The notes under the pieces were generated by a model. The model was not told the origin of the DNA. It saw only the letters and a list, made by a program, of their open reading frames with translations, and did not search any database. A stretch of 64,000 nt of DNA from an uncultured bacterium (GTDB taxonomy: Bacteria; Verrucomicrobiota; Lentisphaeria; Victivallales; UBA1829): the NCBI GenBank assembly GCA_902802585.1, contig CADCMR010000011.1:1-64000 (forward strand), written 5' to 3'. Below, piece after piece: positions 12,668-24,731 of the stretch (its first letter is position 1; each line of letters begins with the position of its first letter). Both the position numbers and the translations under genes were made by a program.

Positions 12668-13687
12668 TCAGCAAATCCGGGGCAGGAGCTCGCCGCCGGG
12701 CTGGGGGAGGAGCGACTGCGCGCCGATCTCGGTGGTCATGACGACCTTGCCGGGATGGTCGGCGACGACTTCGCCGATGACCGCGGCGTTGGCGGAGTAG
12801 GGTCCTTTGCGGAGAGCTTCGAGGATGGCGGGCGCTTCGGATTTTGGCGCGAAGACGACGAGACGCCCTTCGCAGGCGAGGTAAAGCGGTTCGAGTCCGA
12901 GCATGCCGCAGACGCCGCGCACTTCGGGGGCGACCGGGACGTCGGCGGAATTGAGGCGGATTCCGACCTTGCTCTGGTCGGCGATCTCGTACAGGACGGT
13001 GCCGACGCCGCCGCGCGTTGCGTCGCGGATCACATGGATGTCGTGCGAAGCGTCGATCATGCTCTTCACTGTGCCCCAGAGCGGGGCGCAGTCGCTGGTA
13101 ACGTCCGCATCGATCTCGAATTCGTTGCGGGCGAGCAATATGGTGCAGCCGTGTCGGCCCACGTCGCCGGTCACGATCACGGCGTCGCCGGGCTTCGCGA
13201 ACGCGCCGGAGGTGCGGACGCCCTCGGTGAGCTGCCCGACGCCGGTCGTGGTGATGAAGACGTGGTCGACCTGCCCTTTGCCTGCGACCTTGGTGTCGCC
13301 CGCTACGATGCGGACTCCTGCCTCGTCTGCGGTCTTCTTCATGGCGGCTGCGATCTCTTCGAGCTTGGCGAGGGGGAATCCCTCCTCAATCACGAACGCG
13401 CAGGAGAGGTAGAGCGGTTTCGCGCCCATGCACGCGAGGTCATTGACCGTGCCGCAGATGCTGAGCTTGCCGATGTTGCCGCCGGGGAATTCGAACGGCG
13501 ACACGATGAAGCCGTCTGTGGTGAACGCGATCTTTCCGGCGTCCACGGGCAGGACCGCGGCGTCGTCGCCGGTGAAATCCGGGTTGGAGAAGTGCGCCTT
13601 GAAGACGCGGTCGATGAGTTCGGCGGTCTGGCGTCCGCCCGCGCCGTGGGCGAGCGTCACAAAATCGTTTTTGTTCATATTATCCAT
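12668..13687 (-). CDS. hypE: Hydrogenase maturation protein HypE (cyanide ligand synthesis)
   Basis: HypE receives the carbamoyl group made by HypF on its C-terminal cysteine and dehydrates it to a thiocyanate, which HypCD transfers to iron as CN-. The 339-residue protein has the AIR-synthase fold motifs HGAGGRQTAELID, TGDDAAVLP, NDLACMGAKPLYL and RDATRGGVGTVLYEIAD. It ends in the functional PRIC tetrapeptide, so it looks active. The start with GGAG 9 bases upstream overlaps the hypD end by 8 bp; a second in-frame ATG at 13678 lacks this spacing. It is the last gene of the operon before the terminator. Confidence 0.95.
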   Translation of the reverse strand: MDNMNKNDFVTLAHGAGGRQTAELIDRVFKAHFSNPDFTGDDAAVLPVDAGKIAFTTDGFIVSPFEFPGGNIGKLSICGTVNDLACMGAKPLYLSCAFVIEEGFPLAKLEEIAAAMKKTADEAGVRIVAGDTKVAGKGQVDHVFITTTGVGQLTEGVRTSGAFAKPGDAVIVTGDVGRHGCTILLARNEFEIDADVTSDCAPLWGTVKSMIDASHDIHVIRDATRGGVGTVLYEIADQSKVGIRLNSADVPVAPEVRGVCGMLGLEPLYLACEGRLVVFAPKSEAPAILEALRKGPYSANAAVIGEVVADHPGKVVMTTEIGAQSLLPQPGGELLPRIC

Positions 13688-14723
13688 TGAGAATATCTCC
13701 GTATTGGTAGTAGGCGGAACACGCCCCTTCGTTGGAGACCATGCACGCCCCGACCGGATGGAGCGGGGTGCACGCGGTCCCGAAAAGTTTGCAGTCGGTG
13801 GATTTGCATTTGCCCTGAAGCACCTCGCCGCAGCGGCAGGCAGGATTGCTCCGGCCCGCGACGGGCGGCAGAGTGAACTTCAGCCGGGCGTCGTACGCGG
13901 CGAACGCCGGACGGAGTTTCAGGCCGGACATCGGGATCACGCCGAGTCCGCGCCACTCCGCGTCGCACGGTTCCATGATGGCGTCCATCAGCTTCAGCGC
14001 GGCGGGCGACCCCTCGGGACGCACCACGCGCGGATAGCAATTGCGGAAGAATGGTTCGCCGGAGGCGGACAAACGAATAATGACCGCGAGCGCGGTAAGG
14101 ATTTCGTCGGCGGTGAATCCCGCGACCACGCCGGACACGCCGAGTTTCACGAGGCCCTCGCAGACGGCTGTGCCCGTGATGGCGTTCACATGGCCGGGGT
14201 ACAGGAACGCGTCCGCACTGCCTTTCAGCGCCTTGTACGCGTTCGGCATGGTCTTGTTCGCGCCGAGGATCGAGAAGTTCGCAAGCCCTTCGGCGGCGGC
14301 TTTCTTCACCGCCAGACACGCTGCCGGGACCGTCGTTTCGAACCCGACCGCCAGAAAGACGACCTGCTTGTCCGGATTCTCCCGCGCAAAGTCGACCGCG
14401 TCCAGCGGCGAGTAGACGGTCTTCACCGCCGCGCCTTTGGAACGCGCCCCCGCAAGGCTCATTTCCGAGCCGGGCACGCGGATCAGGTCGCCGAACGTGC
14501 AGATGACCGCGCCGTGTTCGAGCGCGAGCATAACCGCCTCGTCGATGTACCCGGCGGGCGTCACGCAGACGGGGCACCCCGGGCCGGAGATGAGTTCGAT
14601 CTGAGGCGGCAGGATGCGGCGGATGCCGAGACGGAAGATCTCGTGCGTGTGGGTGCCGCAGACCTCCATGACGCGGAGTTTGCGCCCGTTGTAGGAGTCG
14701 ATAATCTGTTTAGCCGATTCCAT
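13680..14723 (-). CDS. hypD: Hydrogenase maturation protein HypD (Fe(CN)2CO assembly)
   Basis: HypD, with HypC, is the scaffold on which iron receives two CN- and one CO ligand. The family cysteines are present: VCGTHTHEIFRLG (C22), GPGCPVCVTP (C50, C53), and the C-terminal [4Fe-4S]-type cysteines CRCGEVLQGKCKSTDCKLFG. The 347-residue length is usual. I chose the ATG at 14723 over an upstream TTG. It overlaps hypC by 14 bp and hypE by 8 bp, which implies coupled translation. Nothing suggests loss of function. Confidence 0.95.
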   Translation of the reverse strand: MESAKQIIDSYNGRKLRVMEVCGTHTHEIFRLGIRRILPPQIELISGPGCPVCVTPAGYIDEAVMLALEHGAVICTFGDLIRVPGSEMSLAGARSKGAAVKTVYSPLDAVDFARENPDKQVVFLAVGFETTVPAACLAVKKAAAEGLANFSILGANKTMPNAYKALKGSADAFLYPGHVNAITGTAVCEGLVKLGVSGVVAGFTADEILTALAVIIRLSASGEPFFRNCYPRVVRPEGSPAALKLMDAIMEPCDAEWRGLGVIPMSGLKLRPAFAAYDARLKFTLPPVAGRSNPACRCGEVLQGKCKSTDCKLFGTACTPLHPVGACMVSNEGACSAYYQYGDILNG

Positions 14724-23670: not shown

Positions 23671-24731
23671 GACGTTTCTCCGTAATCCCCGCGGCTTACC
23701 TTGATCGTGTAGCCGATCTTCCGCAGGCGCGCCTGCAGATCCGACGTGGTGATGTGCGTGTCCACGTCCACCGCGGTCTTGTTGTTGTAAAGCATGTATT
23801 TCGCGCGGACCTGTTCCGGTGACAGGTTCGGCATGATGACGTTCGCTCCGGCGAGCACGCCCTTCTCGCGACCGACCGGATCCATGGTGCCGAGCGCGGT
23901 CGTGGCGGGCAGCAGCACGTCCGGGTGCAGGATGCGGCACAGGCTCAGCAGGAAAAGGGTGAGCTCCACGCTTCCAGCGGGCTGGTCTCCGAACGGCGTG
24001 TCGCAGTGCGGGATGAAGGGACCTATGCCGATCATGGCGGGGCGGAACTCCGTGATAAACTCCATGTCTTTCGCGAGCGTGTCGGGCGTCTGAAACGGCG
24101 AACCGACCATGAAGCCGCATCCGGTCTGGAATCCGATCTCATTCAGGTCGCGCAGGCAGTTCATGCGGCGTTCCCAGCTCTGACCCGGCGTATGGAGTTT
24201 CATGTAGTGTTCCGGATCGGCGGTTTCGTGCCGCAGGAGGTAACGGTCAGCGCCGGCGTCGAATAATAGTTGATATTCGTCGCGTTCCAGCTCACCGACA
24301 GACAGCGTCACGGCGCAGTCCGGATGGTTCGTCTTGAGCGTGCGGACCAGCGAGGCGAGGCGAGGCGGCGACCAGGTCGCGTCCTCCCCGCTCTGAAGCA
24401 CGAATGTGCGGAATCCATATTCGTATCCGGCGTTGCAGCAGTCGATGATCTCAGATTCGCCCAGACGGTACCGCTCGCATTTCAGGTTGGACTTGCGGAT
24501 GCCGCAGTACAGGCAGTCGTTGCGGCAGACGTTGGAGAACTCCACGATGCCGCGCACGAAGACGTTGCGCCCGAAACGGGCGGTCGCTAGCTCGCGGGCG
24601 ATCCCGGCGGCGTATGCGCGGTCGGACTCGTCCCCTGTTGCGAGCAGCGCCGTCCAATCCTCGTTGGGGAGGCGTTTCTCCGCGTTCAGGCGGTCAATCC
24701 TGAGCTCGTTCTGTCGTTCCTGTGCGTTCAT
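23664..24731 (-). CDS. hydE: Radical SAM maturase, HydE family ([FeFe]-hydrogenase H-cluster)
   Basis: HydE acts after HydG in H-cluster assembly, using SAM radical chemistry on an Fe(CO)2(CN)-cysteine complex. This 355-residue protein has the family sequence GIVEFSNVCRNDCLYCGIRK with the CX3CX2C cluster motif (C69, C73, C76), a TIM-barrel length typical of HydE (~350), and SVGEL and RHETAD motifs. The start has AGGAAA 5-6 bases upstream. It is the first gene of the operon. Neither hydF nor hydG, nor a [FeFe]-hydrogenase, is in the window. A related radical-SAM enzyme of other specificity, such as the PylB branch, cannot be excluded, but the TM1266-type neighbour favours HydE. Confidence 0.8.
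   Translation of the reverse strand: MNAQERQNELRIDRLNAEKRLPNEDWTALLATGDESDRAYAAGIARELATARFGRNVFVRGIVEFSNVCRNDCLYCGIRKSNLKCERYRLGESEIIDCCNAGYEYGFRTFVLQSGEDATWSPPRLASLVRTLKTNHPDCAVTLSVGELERDEYQLLFDAGADRYLLRHETADPEHYMKLHTPGQSWERRMNCLRDLNEIGFQTGCGFMVGSPFQTPDTLAKDMEFITEFRPAMIGIGPFIPHCDTPFGDQPAGSVELTLFLLSLCRILHPDVLLPATTALGTMDPVGREKGVLAGANVIMPNLSPEQVRAKYMLYNNKTAVDVDTHITTSDLQARLRKIGYTIKVSRGDYGETSC

Follow-up and report, generated by a model that had tools for sequence, protein, structure and literature searches.

A gene cluster joining hydE, two nitrogenase-like modules and hypFCDE as a probable HydG-free maturation system for the H-cluster of [FeFe]-hydrogenases

In the HydE-HydF-HydG system for the maturation of [FeFe]-hydrogenases, the formation of the CO and CN ligands found in the H-cluster is attributed to HydG (PMC9431212), and all five of these ligands come from tyrosine according to the title of a 2011 paper (PMC3105041). 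Here we analyze an operon of an uncultured bacterium of the Lentisphaeria (Victivallales, UBA1829; assembly GCA_902802585.1) that joins hydE to two nitrogenase-like modules and to hypF, hypC, hypD, and hypE. The window, that is, the whole stretch of DNA analyzed, comprises 64,000 nucleotides (positions 1 to 64,000 of contig CADCMR010000011.1). We consider it probable that this operon encodes a system for H-cluster maturation that would take the place of HydG.

Related gene patterns have been described. A 2022 survey of eight Clostridium acetogens reported that all eight strains have HydE and HydF, that five lack a typical HydG, and that five have HypCDEF but neither HypA nor HypB. Each of the eight is listed with a [NiFe] group 1a enzyme, and C. 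autoethanogenum is the only one for which no atypical HydG candidate is given. The HydE and Hyp locus tags are not close together in the tables of that paper, and it offers no straightforward explanation for the pattern (PMC9431212). C. drakei, the sole acetogen of that survey included in our analysis, was found to possess the modules and also HydG. Dos Santos et al. (2012) described NifHEN-like proteins of Coprococcus catus, encoded in two linked copies with hydrogenase maturation genes as neighbors, named Dorea longicatena as a carrier of two NifHEN copies, and suggested in one sentence a role in active-site cluster assembly (PMC3464626). H2 was measured in gut isolates including D. longicatena in a study that contains no maturation terms and is not used here as proof (PMC12578642). 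Among the titles and beginnings of abstracts listed in a literature search that covered few subscription papers or preprints, none links HydG loss with nitrogenase-like genes.

Gene linkage and the distribution of HydG

Eleven minus-strand genes run from hydE to hypE, and a twelfth gene on the same strand, coding for a regulator, lies upstream of hydE. The first-pass annotation had proposed the eleven-gene operon, which proved real: all gene families were confirmed, and with the starts as given the genes overlap by 4-19 bases or are separated by a gap of 1 base. The letters K and D serve to tell apart the two large subunits within a module, and no orthology with NifK or NifD is claimed. The features are as follows.

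24997..25254, minus strand: TM1266-type iron-only hydrogenase system regulator (TIGR03959, 105 bits, cut-off 60.8; present in 50 of the 80 related loci described below)
23664..24731, minus strand: hydE, radical S-adenosylmethionine (SAM) H-cluster maturase (TIGR03956, 499.6 bits, cut-off 254.6)
22900..23670, minus strand: H1, NifH-like ATPase of module 1 (Fer4_NifH, 287 bits; nifH 298.6 against a cut-off of 394.35)
21572..22906, minus strand: K1, large nitrogenase-like subunit of module 1 (Oxidored_nitro, 63.8 bits; no NCBIfam match)
20430..21590, minus strand: D1, second nitrogenase-like subunit of module 1 (Oxidored_nitro, 102.7 bits; nifE 58.2 against 505.1)
19661..20428, minus strand: H2, NifH-like ATPase of module 2 (Fer4_NifH, 288.6 bits; nifH 295.6 against 394.35)
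18360..19664, minus strand: K2, large nitrogenase-like subunit of module 2 (Oxidored_nitro, 102.9 bits)
17302..18363, minus strand: D2, second nitrogenase-like subunit of module 2 (Oxidored_nitro, 62.1 bits)
14919..17300, minus strand: hypF, carbamoyltransferase (TIGR00143, 714.5 bits, cut-off 466.1)
14710..14928, minus strand: hypC, Fe(CN)2CO chaperone (TIGR00074, 67 bits, cut-off 48)
13680..14726, minus strand: hypD, Fe(CN)2CO scaffold (PF01924, 443 bits)
12668..13687, minus strand: hypE, carbamoyl dehydratase with a C-terminal cysteine (two AIRS domains)
12614..12631, minus strand: terminator-like stem followed by a T tract, 3' of hypE (read from the sequence)

The source genome, a 2.61 Mb draft that is 92.85% complete, encodes four [FeFe] H-cluster domains. 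Two of these HydA domains carry TSCCPxW, MPCxxKxxE, and ExMACPGGCxxGGGQP, which we take to be the three H-cluster motifs. HydF is encoded on contig C4 (509 bits). In this draft no HydG was found above the cut-off and the [NiFe] large subunit gave no match; the best HydG match below the cut-off is a second HydE (338 bits) located outside the window. This second HydE (L010:1734-2735, contig C24) is about 41% identical to the HydE of the operon, and in six other carriers of the cluster the only HydE genes listed show a similarly low identity of 38-42%.

Thousands of sequences are related to K2 and D1 at expectation values (E) up to 0.001, remote nitrogenase types among them. A scan of public genome contigs with the K2 alignment detected relatives at 469 places, and the best 80 of these are the related loci to which the locus counts refer. 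The cluster recurs at these 80 loci, although short contigs contain only parts of it; the first-pass annotation had suggested a search for the neighborhood of hydE, both modules, and hypCDEF. According to the locus titles, they belong to Lentisphaeria, Clostridia, Spirochaetaceae, Synergistaceae (a 3 kb contig), and Atopobiaceae; the clostridial loci include Blautia, Ruminococcus, Eubacterium ramulus, Anaerostipes, Faecalicatena, and Clostridium drakei, and Ruminococcus bicirculans and many Lentisphaeria records are among the carriers. Two main arrangements were observed, namely, TM1266/hydE/hydF-H1-K1-D1-H2-K2-D2-hypFCDE and H2-K2-D2-hypFCDE-TM1266-H1-K1-D1.

The 40 loci that span 19 kb or more argue, as had been supposed, that this neighborhood is unlikely to be due to chance: both modules occur together in all of them, H1-K1-D1 is complete in 40/40, 38 contain HypFCDE, and 39 contain HydE (20 loci), HydF (15 loci), or TM1266, alone or in combination. 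None of these 40 loci contains HydG. The hypF gene directly follows D2 in 74 of the 80 related loci, the remaining six ending at K2 or D2, and hydE directly precedes H1 in 31. When the neighbors of 72 loci were clustered, leaving out the first eight (close Lentisphaeria), HydF was the commonest otherwise unassigned neighbor (25/72), with the next three families found 7, 5, and 5 times.

Fifty carrier genomes were picked from the 80 related loci; they are not a random sample, and nine of them are close Lentisphaeria and hence not independent. HydA was found in all 50, HydG above the cut-off in a single one (C. drakei), and the [NiFe] large subunit in seven, one of which is C. drakei. HypCDEF thus persists without a [NiFe] large subunit in the other 43, as it does in the source genome. 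The possibility that HydG is hidden among weaker radical SAM matches was rejected: 11 of the 25 sub-cut-off matches of 171-228 bits were tested and all 11 correspond to ThiH, the best match of the source genome is HydE, and the other sub-cut-off matches listed for the carriers reach 85 bits or less.

A class-level sample around Blautia massiliensis, which we take to represent the Clostridia, comprised 243 genomes, including two already known carriers with which it was seeded. HydA was detected in 231, HydG in 159, K2 above 570 bits in 7, and HypD in 43 genomes, among them all seven with K2. K2 above 570 bits was found in 0 of 157 genomes with both HydA and HydG vs 7 of 74 with HydA and no HydG (Fisher p = 2.8e-4, or 2.8e-3 without the two seeded genomes; these values overstate independence, since the genomes are related and relatedness is uncorrected).

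HydE and HydF were searched with a joint query in 80 genomes, namely, 22 carriers, 53 HydG-less non-carriers, and five HydG-containing controls. The 53 were taken from 67 such non-carriers (52 with strong HydA plus G175), 14 with weaker HydA being left out. Matches to both proteins were obtained in all 22 carriers; the HydE match was weaker in six of them, and the five of these that were tested all proved to be HydE above the cut-off. Neither gene was found at E up to 1e-28 in 46 of the 53 non-carriers; G107 and G234 have HydE only, and G289 HydF only. The joint query can miss a gene, as both were found in four controls and HydF alone in one. In the carriers, the presence of HydA, HydE, and HydF together with the absence of HydG from 49 of the 50 points to the building of an ordinary H-cluster for a HydA encoded elsewhere.

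Families, folds, and conserved residues

The four large subunits form two pairs, K1-D1 and K2-D2. All four belong to Oxidored_nitro and both small subunits to Fer4_NifH. K1 and K2 share 26% identity, and K2 is 61-74% identical to 19 aligned relatives. In trees of 16-18 sampled sequences each, rooted at the midpoint, K1, K2, D1, and D2 each form one clade with support of 1.0, 0.92, 1.0, and 0.87, respectively. None of the family models for characterized relatives reached its cut-off. H1 and H2 missed that of nifH, the large subunits were far below those of nifD and nifK, and no subunit reached those of nifE or nifN, the best nifE score being 60.4 against 505.1. Scores for CfbC were 298.1 and 286.5 (cut-off 402) and for BchL 179.6 and 205.6 (cut-off 345.15), whereas BchB was matched at best with 50.8 (cut-off 490.35). 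Diazotrophy was rejected as the role of the cluster, as every nif cut-off was missed. The similarity to Mar is one of fold only, with 9fmg and 9d9u among many matches; the family search contained no Mar model.

Fold models of D1 and K2 were based on 12 and 20 sequences and had a mean predicted local distance difference test score (pLDDT) of 75 and 84, respectively, with parts below 50. Foldseek assigned both to the nitrogenase component 1 fold (E of 2.4e-15 for D1 and 3.7e-16 for K2). NifEN was the best match of the D1 model by E-value and DPOR ranked high by TM-score, and the K2 model resembles the MoFe protein and NifEN. A sequence search of the PDB returned NifE as the best match for both K2 and D1.

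Residue conservation was counted over aligned copies covering at least 85% of the query. In NifH, two cysteines hold the [4Fe-4S] cluster. By analogy, C94 and C130 of H1, found in 69/69 copies, are presumably cluster ligands, and C95 and C131 of H2 are present in 85/85 copies. Cysteines and histidines are also invariant in the large subunits: H45, C59, C63, C123, and the C-terminal C440 of K1 (78/78), H37 and C42 of D1 (78/78), for which D2 has C37 and C42 (81/81), and C69, C70, H102, C127, and C130 of K2 (86/86). HydE retains C69, C73, and C76 in 38/38 copies, that of the window included, and HydF its cluster motif CxH/HCxxC in 32/32. C2 and H45 of HypC are found in 58/58 copies, the last residue of HypE (C339) in 64/64, 10 cysteines and 3 histidines of HypD in 69 or 70 of 70, and the cysteines of HypD and HypF in at least 68/70. 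Given this conservation, the Hyp proteins seem capable of forming a unit of iron, cyanide, and CO.

Modules were also found outside the cluster. Three weak K2 matches of 210-236 bits in the class sample belong to distant H-K-D modules, and two of the three genomes possess HydG. These modules lie at L171:8368-14553, L172:8274-14537, and L173:367-4164, each followed by ATP-binding cassette (ABC) transporter genes; L173, which starts at a contig end, contains K-D only and, of the transporter genes, only that for the binding protein. At L164:7430-16448 and L166:901-8331, HydE, H1, K1, and D1 are accompanied by ABC transporter genes of the iron type (type assigned by eye). L164 also has HydF and TM1266, and in the genomes of L164 and L166 HydG, HypD, and module 2 were not found.

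As to the remaining features of the window, the relatives of D1 in the alignment begin 5 codons later, at 21575. The first-pass annotation had placed a strong terminator at the end of the operon. A stem with a T tract is indeed present there, but because terminator-like matches in the region are no commoner than in shuffles (11 vs 12.1), this putative terminator is a reading of the sequence. A promoter scan of the region likewise gave about as many matches as shuffles. Upstream of the regulator gene, at 25494-29458, are two plus-strand open reading frames in which long low-complexity stretches rich in Gly, Met, Phe, and Pro occur along with parts that, by eye, are esterase-like; long open reading frames are also present on the opposite strand. 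On the other side, a minus-strand protein of 1941 residues with, by eye, a P-loop and a helicase-like look is encoded at 5365-11190 and adjoins an AraC-like regulator (by eye) at 11279-12367.

Proposed route and alternative explanations

Given the co-occurrence and linkage of the genes, the replacement of HydG by this operon is the most likely interpretation. The assignment of steps to the modules is a proposal that has less support. HypF and HypE would make cyanide and load it onto iron held by HypC-HypD. Module 2 (H2-K2-D2) would carry out an ATP-driven reduction that is otherwise provided by HydG chemistry, perhaps that of CO2 to CO. Module 1 (H1-K1-D1) is envisaged as the following, NifEN-like station, from which the Fe(CO)x(CN)y unit would move on to HydE, then to HydF, acting in delivery, and finally to HydA. 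Module 2 is tied to Hyp because hypF directly follows D2 in nearly all related loci, and module 1 to HydE because hydE often directly precedes H1 and because hydE, H1, K1, and D1 stay together in two genomes in which no module 2 was detected. Nitrogenase Fe proteins are able to form CO from CO2 (PMC9571451), and a CO-forming role is possible for this reason, but CO formation by a nitrogenase-like module is a guess by analogy. The complete scheme, in which the cyanide of the H-cluster would come from carbamoyl phosphate via HypF-HypE and the CO from a nitrogenase-like reductase with HypCD, the two complexes serving as assembly-line stations that jointly replace the tyrosine-cleaving HydG, is put forward tentatively.

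Several points weigh against the replacement of HydG by the operon. Four of the 11 genomes in which HydE and HydF but not HydG were found (G111, G176, G190, and G244) are left unexplained, although draft gaps could account for some of them. In G111 and G244, HydE, HydF, and module 1 were found, HydE being kept with H1, K1, D1, and ABC transporter genes, and HydG, HypD, and module 2 were not detected; in G176 and G190, HydE and HydF were found and none of HydG, HypD, and K2. A HydE-HydF fusion in G190 was ruled out, as the locus shows two separate genes. C. drakei holds HydG in addition to the operon. In the seven carriers with a [NiFe] large subunit, HypCDEF may serve a [NiFe] enzyme. Six of these seven proteins, 331-362 residues in length and one of them truncated where its contig stops, at first looked partial but carry both the CGIC and CISC metal-site motifs; we assume that they are of the group-4 type. 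HydG is absent from 74 of the 231 class-sample genomes with HydA anyway, and a HydA gene alone is no proof of a matured enzyme because 46 of the 53 HydG-less non-carriers also lack HydE and HydF. Hyp and HydE also differ in the unit that they handle: HypCD makes Fe(CN)2CO, whereas HydE takes the Fe(CO)2CN unit that is the product of HydG, so that the ligand ratio must change by a further step. Many of the genomes searched, including that of the operon, are drafts, and no biochemistry of this gene cluster was found in the literature searched.

The occurrence of homologous modules apart from hyd and hyp genes had been named by the first-pass annotation as an observation that would speak against its own view. 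This is the case in part: all three distant H-K-D modules lie beside ABC transporter genes, and the stretches read there contain neither hyd nor hyp genes, which likewise weighs against the replacement of HydG; in two genomes, module 1 is present and hyp genes were not detected. Such modules, the gene linkage, and the conserved cysteines and histidines of K1, D1, K2, and D2 would fit a different function, in which the nitrogenase-like proteins are a new reductase, of unspecified substrate, carrying a CO/CN iron cofactor supplied by HypCDEF and HydE. This comes close to the view of the first-pass annotation, of which the CO/CN iron chemistry holds as the natural common theme of the cluster, whereas a new cofactor carried or used by the nitrogenase-like proteins themselves finds no support. 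The presence of HydA in 50/50 carriers and of HydE and HydF in 22/22, together with the lack of HydG in 49/50, points to an ordinary H-cluster instead. HydF and the TM1266 regulator occur in the same neighborhood, and, where HydG is lacking, no known source would provide the ligands for a HydA that has canonical motifs. We therefore regard a new reductase as unlikely.

It is quite unlikely that module 1 and HydE alone replace HydG, while module 2 and HypCDEF make, for example, an alternative ligand set or take part in H-cluster repair. The gene content of G111 and G244 agrees with such a division, but these are two genomes only, and both modules are found together in the 40 longest neighborhoods, 38 of which contain HypFCDE.

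Very unlikely, finally, is a chance location of a HypCDEF that matures a [NiFe]-hydrogenase elsewhere, with HydG overlooked or made unnecessary by the scavenging of CO and CN: the seven carriers with a [NiFe] large subunit, the group 1a enzyme and atypical HydG candidates of the acetogens, and the approximately 1% HydA activation without HydG in vitro cited in the same survey, which raises the issue of scavenging (PMC9431212), are compatible with it, but hypF follows D2 in 74/80 loci from several phyla, all 11 tested sub-cut-off HydG matches are ThiH, and service to an unseen [NiFe] enzyme was rejected, as the source genome and 43/50 carriers have no large subunit. For the source genome, this means that the complete [NiFe] locus that would have called the first-pass view into question was not found, as judged from the large subunit. 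HypA and HypB are not among the twelve genes listed above, and the rest of the genome was not searched for them.

Significance and comparison with known systems

If the operon does replace HydG, it would reveal a way for gut and rumen bacteria to mature [FeFe]-hydrogenases without this enzyme, and nitrogenase-like proteins would acquire a new job. The combination of the [NiFe] ligand pathway with the nitrogenase fold would represent a second biosynthetic logic for the H-cluster. We know of no established CO source for anaerobic Hyp pathways, and this source would become testable. The operon would, moreover, offer a possible solution to the puzzle posed by the Clostridium acetogens with HydE, HydF, and HypCDEF (PMC9431212). 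Furthermore, it would call for caution with nifH counts from the gut and rumen, since genes for hydrogenase maturation may be among those counted. By NifH, 23% of rumen reference genomes were classed as nitrogenase-positive, while rumen N2 fixation was called negligible (PMC6776011); part of these NifH-positive genomes could owe their classification to H1 and H2 genes.

Among the systems described, the NifHEN-like cluster of C. catus is probably the same gene cluster, matched here by its description and not by its genes; in the passages on it that were available, neither HydG loss, nor HypCDEF without a [NiFe] enzyme, nor a test of co-occurrence is reported (PMC3464626). With NifEN/NifH and other nitrogenase-like enzymes (DPOR, CfbCD, and Mar), the modules share, as judged from K2 and D1, the fold and a weak sequence match, best to NifE, but their subunits remain below the NCBIfam cut-offs of the nitrogenase type and are paired with hyd and hyp genes. 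The HypABCDEF system of [NiFe] maturation is represented by HypC, HypD, HypE, and HypF with their conserved cysteines and histidines, although the source genome and 43 of the 50 carriers have no [NiFe] large subunit. The HydE-HydF-HydG system is resembled through the HydE of the operon, the HydF and HydA of the genome, and the TM1266 regulator, whereas in the place of HydG, which was not found, this locus has HypCDEF and two H-K-D modules.

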